DNA of 64,000 bases from Deroplatys truncata (lineage: Eukaryota > Arthropoda > Insecta > Mantodea > Mantidae): the NCBI GenBank assembly GCA_030765065.1, contig CM060978.1, positions 221,855,498-221,919,497 of the forward strand. Reading direction: 5' to 3'. A model generated the notes under the pieces. That model did no database searches. It saw nothing but the letters and a program-made list of their open reading frames with translations, and was not told where the DNA came from. Of this stretch, positions 13,653 through 61,500 are shown in pieces (the stretch's first letter is position 1; the number at the start of each line of letters is the position of its first letter). The position numbers and the translations under genes are program-made.

Positions 13653-14873
13653 CACTGCGTGATCAAAAATATCCGGACACCTGGATGAAAACGACGTACA
13701 AGTTCGTGGCGCCCTCCATCGGTAATGCTGGAAGTCAATATAGTGTTGGTCCACCCTTAGCCTTGATAAAAGCGTTCACTCTTGCAGGCATACTTTCAAT
13801 CAGGTGCTAGAAGGTTTCTTGGGCAATGGCAGCCCATTCTTCACGGAGTGCGGAACTGAGGAGAGGTATCGATGTAGGTCGGTGAGGTCTGGCACGAAGT
13901 CGGCGTTCCAAAACATCCCAAAGGTGTTCTTTAGGATTCAAGTCAGGACTCTGTGCAGCCAGTCCATTACAGGGATGTTATTGTCGTGTAACCACTCCGC
14001 CACAGCCCGTGCAGTATGAACAGGTGCTCGATCGTGTTGAAAGATGCAATCACCATCCCCGAATTGCTCTTCATCTGTGGGAAGCAAGAAGGTGCTTAAA
14101 ATATCCATTTAAGTCTGCGTTGTGATCGTGCCACGCAAAACAACTAGGGGTGCAAGCCCCCACCAGGAAGAACACGACCACACCATAACACTCCTCACCT
14201 CCGAATTTCACTGTTGGCACTACACACGCTGGCAGATGACGTTCACCGGACATTCGCCATACCCACACCTTGGCATTGTCCCTCCACACAACGTTTTGCC
14301 ACCGCTCAGTCGTGTAATGTTGACGCTCCTTACACCAAGCGAGGCGTCGTTTGGCAGTTTCCTGCGTGATGTGTGGCTTATGAGCAGCCTCTCGCCCATG
14401 GAATCCAAGGTTTCTCACCTCACGCCTAACCGTCATAGTACTTGGAGTGGATCCTGATGCAGTTTGGAATTACTGTGTGATGGTCCGGATAGATGTCTGT
14501 CTATTACTGTTTACGACCCTCTTCAAATGTCCGCCGTTTCTTTCGGTCAACAGACGAGGTCGGCCTATACGCTTTTTTGTTGTACATGTCCCTTCACGTT
14601 TCCACTTCACTATCACATCAAAAACAGTGGACCTAGGGATGTTTAGGAGTGTGGAAATCTCGTGTACAGACTTCTGACACAAGTGACACCCAATCACCTG
14701 ACCACTTTCGAAGTCCGTGAGTGCTACGGAGCGTCCCATTCTGCTGTTTCACGATGTCTAATGATTACTGAGGTCGCGGATAATGAGTACCAGGCAGTAG
14801 GTGGCACCACAATGCACCTAAGATGAAAAACGTATGTTTATGGGGGTGTCTAGATACTTTTGATCACATAGTG
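13653..14873 (-). mobile_element. Tc1-like element (DD34E), decayed copy 1
   Basis: Inverted ends related to GATCAAAAGTATCCGGACAC are flanked by TA (13651-13652 and 14874-14875). The minus strand encodes a Tc1 transposase in pieces: an N-terminal MGRSVALTDFESGQVIG with the helix-turn-helix REISTLLNIPRSTVFDV (about 14739-14600), a GRPRLL linker, the second DNA-binding part, and a central part around [16 protein letters not shown]. The catalytic core is broken by single-base frameshifts, including loss of one C in the segment before the catalytic Glu (about 13955). That Glu codon itself (PKEHLW) is still present. It is the same family as 28246-29481, 33002-34244 and 59412-60640. Confidence 0.93.
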
Positions 14874-22010: not shown

Positions 22011-23810
22011 AATGAGGCGGTATTTTTAACACTTAATAATTTCAGTCTAATTATATAATATGTACATTCAATGACAGCCCGCCTTGAAGCAATATGTGTA
22101 TGTAATAATTTGTAAAATGCATGTAACAGCCATTGCATATGCTTATATATTATTGTATACATGTTCAATAATGTTATATGAATGTATTACGTAATTTAAT
22201 AATGTAAGAGCTGTGAGAAATAGGTCAAAAGTTGCTAACAATGAGGTAACCTTGAGGCAATAATGAGTTTGAGAGTTTAAATGTTATTTGTGATTCTTGG
22301 AAGCAATAATGTGATTTTAGTGACAGTTTATAAAATAGCCAATCAACAACCAGAAAAATGAAGGTATTCATTGGAGTAGGAATAGCCAATCAAAGAGTTG
22401 AAATACATAAATTTACAAGTTTAGACGGTTGAAAACAGTTCAGTTGCCTGCAGACAGTGATAGTAACCGGAAGCTTATGCATCCTCGAGAAAAATATAAA
22501 TTCATGTGAGACGAAAATAGCATATGTGTTAAAAAGTGCAACTATTAAATAAAAGAATCTCACAGCTCTCTACATCAGTGAAATACTGTTTAATTTGTGT
22601 CAAAGATTAATATGAGGGCTGATCAATAAAGACTGAGATTGATTTTTTCCTGTAGCTTTCTTGAGAGTTTCCTGTCTCTACCATGAATATTTGAAAAGAG
22701 CGGGGTTTCATGTATAATGTCCATAGGCGGCAGCACTCTTGTATCGGTAGGTTGGTAATAATGCTGTATATTGTTGACCCTAGTTGAATTTCGCATACCA
22801 CAAAATGAAGGTGGCACAAGAGGAGCAATAACATTTTTTTTTTTCGTTTAAATCATACAGCCTCTGAAACTTTGGAAAAGCTGAAGCAAGCATACGGTGA
22901 AGATGCACTACCTCGTGCAACAGTGTTTAGGTGGTTCAAAGACTTCAAAGTAGAGCGAGTCCTCTGTGCTAAGCAAGGTGGGCCTGGTGCTTCGGCTTCT
23001 GCTATGCCTGAAGTCAACATCAACACAGCTGCTGTGATTGTTGTTCCCACTCACACCACTGTTACAGCAGCGTACTACACGTCAGTATTGGCTACGCCGA
23101 GGAAGCGCATTGCAAGGAAACATCCAGAACTTATCACAACAACGTGCGGCCTCACGTTGCAAATCAAGTCCAAGAATTTTTGTCTAAATTCAACATTACC
23201 TGTGCGCCGCATCTGCCTTATAGCCCCAATCTTGTCCCCTGTGATTTCTTTTTATTCCCATCACTAAAGGCAAAGCACCGAGTCATTCGATTTGAGAGCA
23301 CTGAAGCAGTGCTGAAGAAAAGTGAGGCGATTCTCAAAGACCTGACAAAGAATGGCCTGTACCATGTGTTCGAGGACTGGCACAGACGCTGTAAAAAGTG
23401 CATTCAAGTAGGAAAGGACTACTTTGAAAAAGACTATGACAACATTGAAATGGAGTAATAAATATCTGTGAAAAAAAATTAGTCTCAGTCTTTATTGATC
23501 AGCCCTCGTAAAAAAGAGTGAATTAAAACTTAAAAAATATGTGTAAGCCTACATACTTGTCGCATCACGCCCTGCCAAGATATCCGTGTCTTTAGCAATA
23601 ATACTGACGCAGCCGAGGCAAACATAAATAATTAATACTTAAAGAAACAGTTAATATTTTTTTAAACTTGGGGCAAAGGCCACCTGAAAATACATTTGGG
23701 GCGAAGGCTCCGGAAACCGGGTACCATACTTGCGGTTGCAACTACAACAAGTTCGGCTCTCCAACAGTTGAAATACGATACAAATCCTTCAATACAAATC
23801 TACTTCAGTA
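22011..23810 (+). repeat. LTR-like repeat 'Y', copy 1, interrupted by a mariner
   Basis: It begins TGAGGCGGTATTTTTAACAC. It contains AACAGCCCGCC-like, AGAGCTGTGAGAA, two CCAATCA boxes and an AATCTCACAGCTCTC segment. After the mariner (22613-23508) it continues with CACGCCCTGCCAAGA, GACGCAGCCGAGGCAAAC and a GGGGCGAAGGC-rich tail. Three other copies are in the window (26846-27840, 40885-41827, 43811-44880). A TG start, CCAAT boxes, AATAAA-type signals and downstream primer-site-like motifs suggest an LTR plus leader. No internal coding region follows in any copy. Confidence 0.65.
22613..23508 (+). mobile_element. mariner element (DD34D), second family, internally deleted
   Basis: Inverted ends GAGGGCTGATCAATAAAGAC are flanked by TA (22611-22612 and 23509-23510). 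Transposase pieces on the plus strand are an N-terminal part with LEKLKQAYGEDALPRATVFR and WFKDFK (about 22872-22950), a broken middle with no recognisable first Asp, and a C-terminal part (23144-23458). The C-terminal part has HLPYSPNLVPCDFFLFPSLK, where CDFFLF carries the third catalytic Asp, and ends in a stop at 23458. At 896 bp it is about 400 bp short of a full mariner. The terminal repeats differ from those of 5499-6425, so this is a separate mariner lineage. It sits inside the LTR-like repeat, so it is the younger of the two. Confidence 0.92.
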
Positions 23811-28245: not shown

Positions 28246-29481
28246 CACCATGTGATCAGAAGTATGCGGACACTCCACAAACATACGTTTTTCATCTTCG
28301 GAGCATTGTGCTGCCACATACTGCCTGGTACTCATTATCCGCGACCTCAGTAGGCATTAACATCGTGAAACAGCAGAATGGGACGCTCCGTGGAACTCAC
28401 GGACTTCAAACGTGGTCAGGTGATTGGGTGTCACTTGTATCAGAAGTCTGTACGCGAGATTTCCACACTCCTAAACATCCCTAGGTCCACTGTTTCTGAT
28501 GTGACAGTGAAGTGGAAACGTGAAGGGACAGGTACAGCACAAAAGCGTACAGGCCGGCCTCGTCTGTTGACTGACAGAGACCGCCGACATTTGAAGAGGG
28601 CAGTAAAGAGTAATAGGCAGACATCTATCCAGACCATCACTCAGGAATTCCAAACTGCATCAGGATCCACTCCAAGTACTACGACAGTTAGACGTGAAGT
28701 GAGAAAACTTGAATACCATGGTCGAGCGGCTGCTCATAAGCCACACATCACGCAGGAAAATGCCAAACGACGCCTCGCTTGGTGTAAGGTGCGTCAACAT
28801 TACACGATTGGACAGTGGAAAAACGTGTGAAGTGACAAATCGCGGTACACAATGTGGCGAATGTGTGCCGTGGGTATGGCGAATGTCCGATGAACGTCAT
28901 CTGCCAGCATGTGTAGTGCCAACAGTGAATTTCGGAGGTAGTGGTGTTATAGTGTGGTCGTATTTTTCCTGGTGGGGGTTTGCACCCCTTGTTGTTTTGC
29001 GTGGTACGATCACAGTGCAGGCCTACATTGATATTTTAAGCACCTTCTTGCTTCCCACTTTTGAAGAGCAACTCCGGGATGGCGATTACATCTTTCAACA
29101 CGATCGAGCACCTGTCATACTGCACGTTTTGTGGTGGAGTGGTTACACGACAATAACATCCCTGTAATGGACTGGCCTGCACAGAGTCCTGACTTGAATC
29201 CTGTAGAACACCTTTGGGATGTTTTGGAACGCCGACTTTGTGCCAGGCCTCACCGACCTACATCGATACCTCTCCTCAGTTCCGCACTCCGTGAAGAATG
29301 GTCTGCCATTCCCCAAGAACCTTCCAGCACCTGATTGAAAGTATGCCTGCGAGAGTGAACGTTTTCATAAAGGCTAAGGGTGGGCCAACACCATATTGAC
29401 TTCCAGCATTACCGATGGAGGGCGCCACGAACTTGTACGACATTTTCAGCCAGGTGTCCGGATAGTTTTGATCACGTAGTG
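28246..29481 (+). mobile_element. Tc1-like element (DD34E), decayed copy 2
   Basis: TA flanks (28244-28245 and 29482-29483) and the family's inverted ends bound 1236 bp. The first frame (28378-28830) encodes both N-terminal DNA-binding parts: REISTLLNIPRSTVSDV, GRPRLL, then [20 protein letters not shown]. It stops just before the first catalytic Asp because four bases are missing at about 28828 relative to the copy at 59412. The rest is spread over 28709-29167 ([16 protein letters not shown]) and 29131-29334 (NIPVMDWPAQSPDLNPVEHL), the latter with the catalytic Glu. A further frameshift lies near 29120. Spacing from the HDRAP Asp to that Glu fits DD34E in the sibling copies. Confidence 0.93.
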
Positions 29482-33001: not shown

Positions 33002-34244
33002 CTAAGTGATCAAAAGTATCCGGACACCTGGCTGAAAATGACGTACAAGTTTGTGCTGCTCTCCATCGGTAATGCTGGAAGTCAATATGGTGCTGGCCCA
33101 CCCTTAGCCTTAATACCAGCGTTCACTCTCGCAGGCATACTTTCAATTAGGTGCTGGAAGGTTTCCTGGGGAATGCCAGCTCATTCTTCATGGAGTGCGG
33201 AACTGAGGAGAGGTATCGATGTAGGTCGGTGAGGCCTGGCACGAAGTCGGCGTTCCAAAACATCCCAAAGGTGTACTATAGGATTCAAGTCAGCACTCTG
33301 TGCAGGCCAGTCCATTACAGGGATGTTATTTTCCTGTAACCACTCCGCCACAGCACGTGCAGTATGAACAGGTGCTCGATCGTGTTGAAAGATGCAATCG
33401 CCATCCCCGAATTGCTCTTCAACAGTGGGAAGAAAGAGGGTGCTTAAAATATCAACGTAGGCCTGCGCTGTGATTGTACCACGCAAAACAACAAGGGGTG
33501 CAAGCCCCCACCAGGAAAAACACTACCACACCATAACACCACCACCTCCGAATTTCACTTTTGGCACTACACACGCTGGCAGATGACGTTCACCGGGCAT
33601 TCGCCATACCCACACCCTGCCATCGGATCGCCACATTGTGTACCGTGATTTGTCGCTCCGCACAACGTTTTTCCACTGTTCAATCTTGTAATGTTGACGT
33701 TCCTTACACCAAGCGAGGCGTCGTTTGGCATTTTTCGGCGTGATGTGTGGCTTATGAGCAGCAGCTCGACCATGGAATCCAAGGTTTCTCACCTCACGCC
33801 TAACTTTCATGGTATTTGGAGTGGATCCTGATGCATTTTGGAATTCCTGTGTGATGGTCTGGATAGATGTTTCCCTATTACTCTTTACGACCCTCTTCAA
33901 ATGTCGGCGGTCTCTGTCAGTCAACAGACGAGGTCAGCCTGTACGCTTTTGTGCTGTACATGTCCCTTCACGTTTCCACTTCACTATCACATCAGAAACA
34001 GTGGACCTAGGGATGTTTAGGAGTGTGGAAATCTCGCGTACAGACTTCTGATACAAGTGACACCCAATCACCTGGCCACGTTCGAAGTCCGTGAGTTCCA
34101 CGGAGCTTCCCATTCTGCTGTTTCACGATGTCTGATTACTACTGAGGTCGTGGATAATGATTACTAGGCGGTAGGTGGCAGCACAATGCACCTAAGATGA
34201 ATAACGTATGTTTGTGGGGTTGTCCGGATACTTTGATCACAGGC
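33002..34244 (-). mobile_element. Tc1-like element (DD34E), decayed copy 3 with mutated catalytic Glu
   Basis: It is bounded by the family's inverted ends with a TA at 33000-33001; the right end is slightly degenerate. On the minus strand the transposase is nearly collinear. The N-terminal part (34111-33925) has REISTLLNIPRSTVSDV and an in-frame stop in the GRPRLL linker (Arg codon to TGA). 33924-33523 covers the second DNA-binding part and the SDKSRY Asp, ending in a TAG stop. 33486-33181 covers the catalytic core with FQHDRAPVHTARAV. The residue that should be the catalytic Glu reads Val (NPIVHLWD, about 33271). Two stops plus loss of the Glu make it inactive. Confidence 0.93.
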
Positions 34245-38217: not shown

Positions 38218-40078
38218 CAGGGTAAATCACCTAAACATTGCACCGCAAATGTTTCCGAAATGATGTGCAGTTTCCACAGCATTGATTGGAGGTCAGGGGC
38301 TCGTACATTTAGCCTATAAACAGATTTTAATAATACTAAGAAAGTGTATTTTTTGAGCAAACATACAATTTTTAAATGGAACAATGCCTAGTAACATCAA
38401 CAGAATAAAGGTAGGGTAAATTAGAATGTCAATGGTCTTTGTTGCAGGATTCTAGTGCAAGTGCTTTACGAGAAATCGTATTTTGAAAAGTTTGCACCCC
38501 GACAATTGTTTGTCCCATTCAACCCGCTTAGTTGCTAAGTACGATGTTATGTTTGTTTGGATTGTGTTTTCTGTTCATTGATTGCATTGCGACTTTCTGG
38601 ACAGTTAGTTTGTGACAGTTCAAGCAGTACGTCGTGAGTGGAAGGTGGGGTTTACTAATGCAGAAAAAGCCGACATGCTCATGGTGTATGGAAAGTGTAG
38701 CAAGAATGCAGTTCGTTCCTGTACGATGTTTGCGGTAACGTATCCCAATAGACGTCAACCATCTCGGCAATCATTTATCAACTTCTTCAACCAATTACGT
38801 GAAAGAGGTACTATAACACCTAGAAAACGTAACAGAAACAAACAAGTGACTGGAGAAGAGTCAGAAACTAATGTTTTGGTTGCCGTTGCAGTAGATCAGC
38901 AAATTAGTTCTCGCACAATAGAACGCAGAAGTGGCATAAGTCAGGCAAGTGTACTGCACATTCTCCATCAACATAGGTTCCATCCCTATCACATCTCTCT
39001 CCATCAAGAGCTGCATAGAAACGATTTTCAGAATCGTATTAACTTTTGTACATGGGCATTAAGACATCATACTCCAGATTCATCATGTATCTTGTTTAGT
39101 GATGAGGCAACATTTACTAATCATGCCCAGGTAAACCGCAGAAACATGCACTATTGGTCTGTTGACAATCCCCGTTGGCTTCGTCAGGTGGAACGTCAGC
39201 GTCCATGGAGTTTAAACGTGTGGTGTGCGATAGTGAACCACCAGCTCATAGGCCCTTTGTTCCTAGAAGGAATAAGGAACTCGCACAAGTATTGCAGCCT
39301 CCTGACAGACCATTTGTCACAGATGCTAGAAGACGTTCCTTTGCAGACTAGGAGGAACATAAGATACCAACATGATGGCTGTCCAGCCCATAGTGTACGA
39401 AGTACTACAGCTTGTCTTAAAGGATTGTTTCAAAATCGTTGGGTTGGACGAAGAGGACCTGTAACTTGGCCGGCCCGTTCACCGGATCTGACCCCTTTAG
39501 ACTTTTTTCTGTGAGGAAGGCTGAAAGACACTGTCTACAAGGATGTACCAACTACACCAGACGATATGAAACGACGTATTACTACTCCTGTCTGCAATTT
39601 CCGCTGAAATGCTATAACGTGTGCAGCAGTCTTTCCATAGCAAACTGGAAGTGTGTATTGAAGCTGCCGGTGGTCATTTTAAACACAACCTTTGAAGGCT
39701 TATGTTCTCTTTACTTGTAAGAATCCACAGAAGTATTGTAATTCCCTTTTGTTGTTTTTAGTTTTGCTACCACAGGTTGTACAAGTGTCGGTGCGTAAAA
39801 GTTTCAAAATAAGATTTCTCGTAAACCATTTGCACTAGAATCGTGCAACAAACGTGACTGACATTCTAATTTACCCTAACTTTATTCTGTTGATGTAACT
39901 AGGCATTGTTCCATTTAAAAATTGTATGTTTACTCAAAAAATACACTTTCTCAGTACTATTAAAATCTGTTTGTAGGCTAAATGTACTGACTACCAATCA
40001 ATGCTGTGAAAGCTGCACATCAATAGCATTTTCAATTTCCGAAATATTTGCGGTGCAAGTTATAGGTGATTCACCCTG
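38218..40078 (+). mobile_element. DD41D (rosa-like) transposon with inverted repeats of about 290 bp
   Basis: The two ends are long inverted copies: 38218 to about 38509 and about 39782 to 40078. Both begin CAGGGTnAATCACCTA at the outside and share TTGCACCGCAAAT, AACATACAATTTTTAAATGG and AACAATGCCTAGT. TA dinucleotides flank the element (38216-38217 and 40079-40080). Between the arms lies a transposase gene of about 1.1 kb with few lesions (38612-39695). Total length is 1861 bp. It inserted about 10 bases beyond the SINE's right duplication. It is the youngest-looking autonomous-type element in the window. Confidence 0.92.
38612..39695 (+). pseudogene. DD41D transposase, nearly intact
   Basis: An uninterrupted 300-codon frame runs from 38612 to a TGA at 39512-39514. 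Residues 12-60 form the first DNA-binding part (TNAEKADMLMVYG, PNRRQPSRQSF). Residues 92-127 form the second helix-turn-helix (ISSRTIERRSGISQASVL). The RNase-H-like catalytic core carries D164 (LFSDEATF), D255 (YQHDGCPAH) and D297 (SPDLTPLDFFL), with exactly 41 residues between the last two, the DD41D spacing reported for rosa-type elements. The TGA replaces an expected Trp (FFLWG). Beyond it a frameshift near 39590 and a TAA at about 39616 interrupt the C-terminus, which still ends AAGGHFKHNL. All three catalytic residues are present, so loss of function comes from the late stop. The true start could be a little upstream. Confidence 0.9.
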
Positions 40079-57538: not shown

Positions 57539-59285
57539 TTACTTTCTCTACTATGTATAGTAAGTAGGGGAAGTATTGTATTCCACCCAAAATTTCGATA
57601 CCAAGATTTCACCGGAAATACATGTTTTGAGACTCACTGAATCCAAAAAAAGCATTTTTGGAACATGTCCTTGTGTGTGTCTGTGTGTCTGTCTGTGTGT
57701 GTGTCAGTGTGTCTGTGAACAGCATAACTCAAAAACGAACAGTCGGATAAACATCAAACTTGGTATTTAGGTTGAGTATCTTTCAGAGATGGGACACGCA
57801 GGTTTTCAAGAAAATCCCCCCACCCCAGACTACCCTTTACATGGAACATTTTTCGAAAATTTTAATTTTCTCAAAAACGGCTCTAACGATTTTGATTAAA
57901 ATATCATATGTTTAAGATGTTGTCATGACAAATAAAATGTATATCTCGAACTTTCTGGGAATGTCTCCAAAAGTATTCTTCATTATGAACGACGTTTTCA
58001 TAACTGGTAAACCATAAGAGATAGACAAAATTTTACTACACGAAAAATGTAGATCGCGTTAAAATACACAATTTATGTCATATACATTTCTTTACTTGAG
58101 TGAACCGTTTGCGAGATATTGCTTGTTATTCCCTTATATTTTCCAATACTTATACTTTTTCTCAAATTCGTTATTAATTACTTTCTCTACTACGTATAGT
58201 AAGTAGGGGAAGTATTACATTCCACCCAAAAATTCGATACCGAGATTTCACCGGAAATACATGTTTTGAGACCTCCTGAATCCAAAAAAAGCATTTTTGG
58301 AAACATCTCCGTGTGTGTGTCTGTGTGTGTGTGTCTGTGTGTCTGTGTGTGTGTGTCTGTGAACAGCATAACTCAAAAACTAACAGTCGGATAAACACCA
58401 AACTTGGTATTTACGTTCAGTATCTTCCAGAGATGCGACACGAAGATTTTCAAGAAAATACCCCCACCCCAGACTACCCTTTACATGGAACATTTTTCGA
58501 AAATTTTAATTTTCTCAAAAATGGCTCTAACGATTTTGATGAAAATATCATATGTTTAAGATAATGTCATGAGAAATGAAATGTATATCTCGAAATTTCT
58601 GGGAATGTCTCCAAAAGTATTCTTCATTGTGAACGACTTTTGCATAACTGGTAAACCATAAGAGATAGACAAAATCTTACTACACAAACAATGTAGATCG
58701 CGTTAAAATACACAACTTATATCATATACATTTTTTTTGTTGAGTGAACCGTTTTCGAGATATTGCTTGTTATTTCCTTAAATTTTCCAATACTTATACT
58801 TTTTCTCAAATTCGTTATTCATTTTTTTATGTCCTGGACATGCAAAGAGAATGGAATGCGCCGCATAGCAACCAGCGATAAAATATTTGACTATCGCTTA
58901 AAAGCTACCATATTCCCCTTGCATCTACAAGAAAATTACAAATAAGATTGACATCTCGATATCTCGATTAATATGAAGCATATGGAGAATAGGCGTTTGT
59001 AAAAATAGATTGTACAAGAGTAGAGAAAGTCATGTGAGTGTAACACATCAGATTTTTTTTTATGTCCTGGACATGCAAAGAGAATGGAATGCGCCACATA
59101 GCAACCAGCGTTAAAATATTTGACTATCGCTTAAAAGCTACCATATTCCCTTTGCATCTACATGAATATTACCAATAAGATTGACATCTCGATATCTCGA
59201 TTAACATGAAGCATATGGAGAATAAGCGTTTGTAAAAATAGTTTGTACAAGAGTAGAGAAAGTCATGTGAGTGTAACACATCAGA
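57539..59285 (-). mobile_element. HLR copy (minus), outer member of a nested pair
   Basis: 57539-58177 carries the family's 3' end, a GT microsatellite (about 57672-57715) and most of the interior. The missing 5' quarter, from the T run and ATGTCCTGGACATGC onward, resumes at 59053-59285 and ends at ACACATCAGA. Joined, the two parts are about 872 bp, full length. The gap is filled exactly by the HLR at 58178-59052. Confidence 0.87.
58178..59052 (-). mobile_element. HLR copy (minus), inner member of a nested pair
   Basis: A complete copy of about 875 bp, from TTACTTTCTCTACTACG to GTGTAACACATCAGA, with a GT/CTGT microsatellite (about 58308-58362). It carries an unbroken version of the segment into which it inserted (about 58803-58838), which allows the empty site of its host copy to be compared directly. 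Confidence 0.9.
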
Positions 59286-59411
59286 TTTTTATAAATGTAT
59301 TGCCAGTTGTTGCTAAAGCAGTAAAGGCTTTTATAACTTTATTAGCGCTTAGTGCTATTAGCGTTTGTATTAGTGTTTAAATTATTACACATTGTATTTC
59401 TTTTATGTATA

Positions 59412-60640
59412 CATTATATGATCAAAAGTATCCGGACACCCCCCCAAACATACGTTTTTCATCTTAGGTGCATTGTACTGTCATCTACTGCCTGGTACTC
59501 ATTATCCGCGACCTCAGTAGTCATTAGACACGGTGAAACAGCAGAATGGGACGCTCCGTGGAACATTCAGACTTCGAACGTGGTCAGGTGATTGGGAGTC
59601 ACTTGTGTCAGAAGTCTGTGCGCGAGATTTCCACACTCCTAAACATCCCTAGGTCCACTGTTTCTGATGTGATAGTGAAGTGGAGACGTGAAGGGACATG
59701 TACAGCACAAAAGCGTACAGGCCGACCTCGTCTGTTGACTGACAGAGACCACCGACATTTGAAGAGTGTCGTAAAGTGTAATAGGAAGACATCTATCCAG
59801 ACCATCACACAGGAATTCCAAACTGCATCAGGATTCACTCCAAGTACTATGGCATATAGGCGTGAGGTGAGAAACCTTGGATTTCATGGTCGAGCGGCTG
59901 CTCATAAGCCACACATCGTGCAGGAAAATGCCAAACGACGCCTCGCTTCGTATAAGGAGCGTCAACATTACACGATTGGACAGTGGAAAAACGTTGTGTG
60001 GAGTGACAAATCACGGTACACAATGTGGCGAATGTGTGCCGTGGGTATGGCGAATGCCCGGTGAACGTCATCTGCCAGCGTGTGTAGTGCCAACAGTGAA
60101 ATTCGGAGGAGGTTGTGGTGTTATGGTGTGGTCGGGTTTTTCCTGGGGGGGCTTGTACCCCCTGTTGTTTTGCGTGGCGCAGACCTACACTGATATTTTA
60201 AGCATCTTCATGAGTCCCACTGTTGAAGAGCAATTCTGGGATGGCGATTGCATCTTTCAACACGATCGAGTACCTTTTCATACTGCACGGGCTGTGGTGG
60301 AGTGGTTACACGACAATAACATCCCTGTAATGGCCTGCATAGAGTCCTGACTTGATTCCTATAGAACACCTTTGGGATGTTTTGGAACGCCGACTTCGTG
60401 CCAAGCCTCACCGAACTACATCAATACCTCTCCTTAGTTCCGCACTCCGTGAAGAATGGGCTGCCATTCTCAAAGAAACCTTCCAGCACGTGATTGAAAG
60501 TATGCCTGCGAGAATGAACGCTGTCATCAAGGCTAAGGGTGGGCCAACACCATTTTGACTTCCAGCATTACCGATGGAGGGCGCTACGAACTTCTACGTC
60601 ATTTTCAGTCAGGTGTCCGGATACTTTTGATCACGTAGTG
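59412..60640 (+). mobile_element. Tc1-like element (DD34E), best-preserved copy
   Basis: TA flanks (59410-59411 and 60641-60642) and inverted ends GATCAAAAGTATCCGGACAC bound 1229 bp. The first frame (59546-60064) encodes 172 residues: helix-turn-helix 1 (residues 23-46, REISTLLNIPRSTVSDV), a GRPR linker (59-62), helix-turn-helix 2 (about 83-120) and the first catalytic Asp, D154 (VWSDKSRY). A small deletion after MW shifts the frame into 60000-60350, which carries [16 protein letters not shown] and the second Asp in FQHDRVPFH. A five-base loss near 60335 shifts it again into 60352-60558, with the catalytic Glu in PIEHLWDVLERRLR and a C-terminal GPTPF stop. All three catalytic residues survive in separate frames. 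Confidence 0.95.
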
Positions 60641-60934
60641 TATGTTACTTTTGGAATGCTTCTGAGAATGTAAATTAAAGTTATTAAGAAAACCTTCTTC
60701 CTGGCTTTTTGACCTTGTAACAACATGTATAATATAAATGTAGTATTGTCAGCGCTTTTGTGGATTAATTATGTTTTAATCCTTATTTTTGCTAACATAT
60801 GTATGTATAACTATATATATAGTAACGCAGGGGCTATGGCCCTAGGTTATCGGGAGATCGGCCGAGCAGTCGGATGCAAACAACGATAAGCACTCGCAAG
60901 CATAAGCACTGTGCGCGGTATCGGCTGATAACTA

Positions 60935-60952
60935 GAATCTTCTGGAAGCTTC
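60935..60952 (+). promoter_or_regulatory. Heat-shock element array 1 (distal)
   Basis: GAATCTTCTGGAAGCTTC consists of four perfect alternating GAA/TTC units with two-base spacers, the binding pattern of trimeric heat-shock factor. It lies about 105-120 bases upstream of the predicted start at 61055. Confidence 0.85.
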
Positions 60953-60985
60953 TTCTCCTTCTCCTCCAGAAAAGTGTCTAACTAG

Positions 60986-61013
60986 TTCTAGAACGTTCGA
61001 GAATCTTGTGGAA
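60986..61013 (+). promoter_or_regulatory. Heat-shock element array 2 (proximal)
   Basis: Six units in five-base phase: TTC at 60986, GAA at 60991, TTC at 60996, GAA at 61001, an imperfect TTG at 61006 and GAA at 61011. It ends about 14 bases before the TATA box, matching the proximal position seen in insect Hsp70 promoters. Confidence 0.88.
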
Positions 61014-61026
61014 AGATTCCATTGAC

Positions 61027-61060
61027 TATATAAGCTAGCGCTCTCGCGAGAGTCATTCAG
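61027..61060 (+). promoter_or_regulatory. Core promoter: TATA box and initiator
   Basis: TATATAAG at 61027-61034 is followed by a perfect arthropod initiator, TCATTC, at 61053-61058, with the start A at 61055, 28 bases from the TATA box. Together with the two heat-shock arrays this is a complete heat-inducible promoter by sequence. Confidence 0.8.
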
Positions 61061-61500
61061 CGCAAGCCGAATGCGTGTTGAGTTGCTTCGGTCAGTCAGT
61101 GAACCAGCGAGTTGATGGGTGTTTCCCTTTCGACATCCAGAGCGGTTCTCCGAGAGAGTCGGTGACAGTTGTGATGTGCATTGGGTACTACTGCGACGTG
61201 CAACAAATGCTACTGCGGAGCGACTGAATATAGAGGTCATGTGTTCTGCTCCCCAGTGAAATGAACCGTCCGGCGTAAAGAGGCTATGTAATGAAGGAAG
61301 TGAAGTGTTCACCTTAGTGATGTGACAGTAAACATCTAGTGAAGCTGAACTAGATAAGAACTTAGAACGGTGACAGTGAGATTTGAGAGAGGTTGCAGTT
61401 GAAAAACTGACAAAGTCACAAAATATACATATATATACCAGGGAGTCAGCTGCCCCTAGGTATTCGTATCTATGCAACCCGCAGTTTATATACTAATGTG
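61055..61500 (+). other. Putative heat-shock transcript 5' region, non-coding
   Basis: The 450 bases after the predicted start are less AT-rich than their surroundings and look like a long Hsp-type leader (GTGAAG, AACTAGATAAGAACTTAGA). No Hsp70 or other recognisable coding sequence begins here; the longest plus-strand ATG frame near 61115 gives only 36 residues. Alternatives are an Hsp gene whose coding part was lost, a heat-shock non-coding RNA, or a solo LTR with a heat-inducible promoter. Confidence 0.4.

Follow-up and report, generated by a model that had tools for sequence, protein, structure and literature searches.

A probable solo LTR with heat-shock element arrays, from an old retrotransposon family of the mantis Deroplatys truncata

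The 600 bp at positions 60821-61420 of the window (the whole stretch of 64,000 nucleotides of Deroplatys truncata DNA that was analyzed) very probably constitute a solo long terminal repeat (LTR) of an old, non-autonomous retrotransposon of approximately 2.2 kb, probably of the Ty3/gypsy type, whose family carried a heat-shock promoter. A first-pass annotation had described a heat-shock promoter without a recognizable gene and had offered three readings of it: an orphan heat-inducible non-coding RNA, the residue of a lost Hsp copy, or the U3/R part of a solo LTR with possible ends near 60822 and 61486. The solo LTR fits best among the three and is supported once its ends are corrected: the left end had been placed correctly to within one base, but homology ceases near 61420, so that 61486 lies outside the repeat. 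The coordinates of the features are shown in Table 1.

Table 1. Features of the putative solo LTR and its flanks, in window positions.
Feature	Position	Strand	Description
5' flank	60817-60820	+	ATAT (target site)
Solo LTR, 600 bp	60821-61420	+	Defined by own-genome BLAST and the edges of 20 loci; TGTRACGCAG-like start, AAAGTCACA end
HSE array 1	60934-60953	+	AGAAT CTTCT GGAAG CTTCT; four perfect alternating GAA/TTC units; common to the family
HSE array 2	60985-61014	+	GTTCT AGAAC GTTCG AGAAT CTTGT GGAAA; six units, the first four perfect, the fifth imperfect; common to the family
TATA box	61027-61034	+	TATATAAG; ATATAA in 20 of 22 aligned copies
Initiator-like motif	61053-61058	+	TCATTC; A at 61055 taken as the putative start site, where R would begin; little conserved across the family
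3' flank	61421-61424	+	AAAT; differs from the 5' flank at one of four bases; either a decayed target-site duplication or no duplication at all

The two arrays of heat-shock elements (HSEs), TATATAAG and TCATTC were all present as the annotation had claimed, at the coordinates of Table 1. Array 2 ends 12 bp before TATATAAG, array 1 lies another 31 bp 5' of array 2, and the A of TCATTC is 28 bases past the first T of the TATA box. Such compact spacing resembles that of Hsp70-type promoters, and contiguous GAA/TTC units are the binding sites of heat-shock factor (HSF) trimers. The 600-bp copy contains four overlapping perfect three-unit HSEs and two four-unit HSEs, while none of 20,000 dinucleotide shuffles of it contained four or more three-unit HSEs (mean 0.009). 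Across the 64-kb window there were six perfect three-unit HSEs, four of them inside the LTR copy, as were both four-unit HSEs; the window shuffled 20 times contained an average of 0.8 three-unit HSEs.

Positions 60820-61500 were used as a BLAST query against the organism's own 4.29-Gb genome. A loose first look returned 6473 candidates, a figure that is not a copy number, and 40 were scored, consisting of the window and 39 other loci whose main matches were 69-78% identical; the genomic copies for which the annotation had suggested looking thus exist. The main matches at all 39 loci begin at query base 1-16; the right-hand limit falls at query base 598-616 (61417-61435) in 19 of them and at 340-584 in the other 20. 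Removal of two near-duplicates left 37 loci, and the best-scoring 20 of these were used to define the edges. At the 20 loci the repeat starts with TGTGACGCAG or a close variant of it, and those matches long enough to include the other end finish with AAAGTCACA or a close variant; inverted termini of the form TGTGAC...GTCACA, or close variants, were found at most of them where the match reaches the edge. The repeat is dispersed, its ends are fixed and its short termini are inverted (TG...CA), although in the window copy the first T of the terminus is replaced by A. Three of the LTR copies among the 39 loci, near 637.95, 638.08 and 638.21 Mb of one contig (C16), are near-identical together with their flanks (98-99.97%); they lie approximately 125 kb apart and are members of one recent local duplication.

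Elements with paired LTRs were also found. A search of approximately 9 kb downstream and 1 kb upstream of each of the 20 loci revealed a second direct LTR copy only at L021, 1,296 bp away. Searching with the LTR of L023 plus the stretch before it added L030, L031 and L032, along with L033, which is the upstream part of L023. The element in L031 (256-2496) has LTRs at 256-857 and 1896-2496 around an internal region of 1,038 bp; L030 (whose 5' LTR is partial), L023 with L033, and L021 have the same kind of layout with losses, while L032 yielded an internal region and one LTR. The elements are some 2.2 kb in length with an internal region of about 1 kb. Following the 5' LTR of L031 is TGGTGTCAGAAGTGGG, which is like a primer-binding site and which we take to be the complement of the 3' end of a tRNA-Leu; a scan of the window and 21 loci gave no tRNA-Leu for comparison. 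A purine tract precedes the 3' LTR of L023. Direct LTR pairs around an internal region with ends like a primer-binding site and a polypurine tract are thus represented by L031, L030, L023/L033 and L021. The window copy is taken to be a solo LTR because nothing in the window matches the internal region of L031 or that of L021.

The internal regions encode little that can be recognized. A fragment of the integrase H2C2 zinc-binding domain (PF17921) was identified at L031:1643-1852 (E value 3e-8; 34.1 bits against a cut-off of 25.5), and a PDB search using the 69-amino acid integrase-like fragment gave no match up to an E value of 1. This fragment is the only piece of pol found, no reverse transcriptase being seen in the internal regions. 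The start of the internal region has a coiled-coil-like reading that we presume to be gag-like; it is represented by a 137-amino acid stop-to-stop open reading frame (ORF) in L032 and 74 amino acids in L030, where all Pfam matches were below the cut-off. The sense frames contain 10-22 stops each in the internal regions of L031, L030 and L023 and 4-14 in that of L021, and an open frame of 174 amino acids in the latter had no Pfam match. Since an internal region of approximately 1 kb is too short for pol, the element is regarded as a non-autonomous derivative, probably of a Ty3/gypsy element, to judge from the one short integrase fragment and sequence motifs. At L014, where the LTR match stops, the stretch just past position 1457 is presumably tRNA-derived (SINE-like), and neither ARAGORN nor Rfam lists a tRNA in L014.

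Many of the 20 loci have ATAT-like flanks. The flanks were compared in 15 rows, which were the window, the L031 element and 13 loci from the set of 20, leaving out L012, L014, L020, L024 and L028, where the match stopped early, and L021 and L023, which have internal sequence; an edge was missing in four rows. In the remaining 11 rows the two flanks were identical over 4 bp in six (one GTAT/GTAT and five ATAT/ATAT), agreed at three of four positions in four, including the window (ATAT/AAAT), and at two of four in one. At L023 the element with two LTRs is bordered by dissimilar sequences, GTAT and GCAA. When the flanks of different copies were paired with one another, 40-41% of the pairs also matched over all 4 bp, which six of 11 hardly exceeds. 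A 4-bp target-site duplication is likely in this family but not proven, and because of the ATAT bias of the flanks it was set aside as statistical proof.

In order to see how the promoter is kept within the family, 22 LTRs were aligned (the window copy, the 20 loci and the second copy of L021), and matches that stopped early were extended to nominal length. A perfect three-unit HSE is kept in 19 of the 22, being missing in L010, L016 and L017, although this retention is overstated because the copies were picked by likeness to a window copy with perfect HSEs. Together the 22 LTRs contain 48 three-unit and 19 four-unit HSEs, compared with a shuffle expectation of 0.145 three-unit HSEs (maximum of two in 200 sets). 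In the 273 kb examined, in which the loci were chosen for the LTR, 21 four-unit HSEs lie in the 16.4 kb of LTR and none in the other 256 kb; for three-unit HSEs the numbers are 53 inside and four outside. The HSEs belong to the family, in that HSE arrays and a TATA box are found in the U3 of most aligned copies, and these LTR promoters contain HSEs of at least three to four contiguous units, as in elements of the ONSEN type. The initiator is more variable: in 12 of the 22 copies there is a TCAKT motif whose A falls 27-37 bases past the first base of the TATA motif, in two the motif lies farther away and in eight it is absent, and no 20-base block of the LTR is less conserved than 61041-61060. 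The best conserved such block is at 61027, the TATA box, when gaps are counted as misses. When gaps are ignored it is 61181-61200 (approximately LTR positions 361-380; 0.96), in the presumed R/U5 and outside the HSEs.

The 22 copies are on average 78% identical. The LTR pairs of four elements differ by K2P distances of 0.123, 0.175, 0.185 and 0.187, and because of this divergence of 0.12-0.19 the elements are considered old. A substitution rate of 3e-9 per site and year, which is assumed and does not come from D. truncata, gives an age of some 20-31 million years.

A promoter left behind after decay of an Hsp gene would explain the likeness to an Hsp70 promoter, and it was one of the annotation's readings, yet it has almost no probability left. 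Another 39 scored loci carry the same repeat, in some cases as a pair on either side of a retroelement internal region, and the dispersed matches, the repeat edges and the paired-LTR layout already contradict a lost gene copy; the promoter sits within a dispersed repeat that has the anatomy of an LTR. The absence of a heat-shock protein after the promoter, which the annotation had noted, held up: the longest sense frame between 61040 and the window end, open ends included, has 104 amino acids, and the five sense frames there of at least 60 amino acids gave no Pfam match up to an E value of 0.1, so that the site does not drive an Hsp coding region as an Hsp70 gene promoter does. Nine of the 19 stop-to-stop ORFs of at least 130 amino acids in the window were scanned, and none had a Pfam match to HSP70. 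The orphan heat-inducible non-coding RNA gained no support of its own, as Rfam gave no match at the gathering threshold over the window, but a solo LTR could still start a non-coding transcript. An antisense open frame of 186 amino acids (60932-61492, minus strand) was rejected as coding because it has no Pfam match and the longest minus-strand frames of the 22 copies average 83.6 amino acids, compared with 85.0 in mononucleotide shuffles; base composition explains it.

Two further alternatives accept the LTR and concern its origin or its present use. The U3 might have been captured from the promoter of a host heat-shock gene, rather than the HSEs having grown within the element. The compact HSE, TATA and initiator spacing, which is like that of Hsp70-type promoters, speaks for such a capture. 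So does the number of HSEs, which exceeds the single predicted HSF site listed for each of the copia and gypsy LTRs of Drosophila (PMC10745035, Table 5); against it, array 1 merges into a pyrimidine-rich stretch, which permits stepwise growth of the kind reported for the HSEs of Brassicaceae COPIA elements (PMC5059998), and on balance we consider capture unlikely. Co-option of the window LTR as a heat-inducible promoter for a non-coding RNA or a nearby gene is a good deal less probable still. The window copy has kept its TATA box and both four-unit arrays intact, and family-wide the agreement with the commonest base is slightly higher in the HSE core (0.919) than in the spacers of the same units (0.874; permutation p 0.038) or the rest of the LTR (0.799), with 0.8% of 600 mask shifts as high. 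However, array 1 is matched or surpassed in conservation by 19% of 20-base windows and array 2 by 5% of 30-base windows, and copies chosen by similarity provide no clean test of selection. For these reasons, other segments being conserved alike and the sampling biased, selection on the HSEs after insertion is not claimed from so weak a signal. Pfam, Rfam and the reading frames recognized no gene or RNA family around the window copy.

Returning to the solo LTR, the sequence of events may be pictured as follows. During the activity of the family, heat-activated HSF trimers would have bound both arrays and driven transcription from the TATA box and initiator through R, and the RNA produced in this way under heat stress would have been reverse-transcribed with enzymes from an autonomous relative. 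The solo LTR at 60821-61420 would be what remained once the LTRs at the two ends of an approximately 2.2-kb element had recombined. Transcription of the family was thus presumably heat-induced and HSF-dependent, by analogy with known elements. With the HSEs carried in its own promoter, the family would have placed copies of this switch at many places in the genome. With less assurance, the surviving solo LTRs, including the window copy, can be regarded as potential HSF sites able to start short heat-inducible transcripts. It is a more speculative suggestion, and a rather doubtful one, that a non-autonomous gypsy-type family with an Hsp70-like LTR promoter multiplied through the heat-shock response in this 4.3-Gb genome, and that its solo LTRs, numerous, partly intact and HSF-binding, now supply a good share of the strong HSEs and make some nearby loci heat-inducible.

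The nearest known systems differ in several respects. ONSEN is a plant Ty1/copia element with 24 copies in Arabidopsis thaliana and heat induction established by experiment, and DIRS-1 of Dictyostelium is a tyrosine-recombinase element, whereas the window family is that of an insect, probably gypsy-type, non-autonomous and old, with solo LTRs that keep their HSEs, and is read from sequence alone. The likeness to ONSEN/COPIA78 lies in the four-unit LTR HSEs by which transcription is coupled to the host's heat-shock factor (PMC3907296, PMC5059998); HSFA2 is reported to bind the ONSEN LTR and to be required for its full activation (PMC3907296). For Brassicaceae COPIA LTRs, predicted three- and four-unit HSEs are described as going with up to hundred-fold and thousand-fold heat induction, respectively (PMC5059998). 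The same report gives none of 16 ONSEN fragments and solo LTRs of A. thaliana as having functional heat-responsive elements or a heat response (PMC5059998), and for that reason the solo LTRs described here may be silent, although the window copy, unlike those of ONSEN, keeps intact arrays. In Caenorhabditis, HSF sites are likewise distributed by mobile elements, the Helitrons, which are reported to contain almost two-thirds of the HSEs of C. elegans; these are DNA transposons, and HSF binding is shown there while the sites here are predicted (PMC6927752). DIRS-1 has terminal repeats with a heat-shock promoter, as in the window family, but according to a title cited in PMC2685390 they are inverted (both points as cited there). 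Putative LTR HSEs are also described in the fungus Cryptococcus, two in TCN3, a Ty3/gypsy and likely autonomous element, and one in TCN12, both of which move at 37 degrees (PMC12810828). Among insects, the LTRs of Drosophila copia and gypsy are listed with one predicted HSF site each (PMC10745035, Table 5), compared with two multi-unit arrays here. Heat activation of transposons through host factors, or promoter motifs of this kind, is mentioned for animals or Drosophila (PMC12810828, PMC5059998), and the open-licence literature searched, as far as its accessible text goes, yielded no LTR element from an animal in which HSEs form multi-unit arrays. Heat activation of LTR elements is documented for plants, and for fungi it is suspected; an insect LTR family with two multi-unit HSE arrays and a TATA box, carried through a very large genome by a non-autonomous element, would let one ask whether LTRs rewire the animal heat-shock response, in parallel to the Helitrons of nematodes.

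Several other mobile elements lie in the window. A Tc1-like DNA transposon at 59409-60643, which has inverted ends of 32 bp (91%) and whose transposase (HTH_Tnp_Tc3_2) is broken, stops approximately 180 bp short of the LTR. The Pfam family of this transposase is also matched by ORFs at 28369-28830 and 33523-33933, and the ORF at 14071-14469 resembles them in appearance. An open frame of 301 amino acids (38609-39514) contains a DUF4817 helix-turn-helix (E value 8e-12); the rest of it is, we assume, transposase-like, and it is perhaps a fairly intact transposon gene. The ORF at 22809-23267, with a Mos1-type helix-turn-helix (PF17906), is a mariner remnant. A 192-bp stretch at 58000 recurs at 58644 (91%), and at 58822-59290 a 233-bp unit is present as a tandem duplicate with 96% identity.
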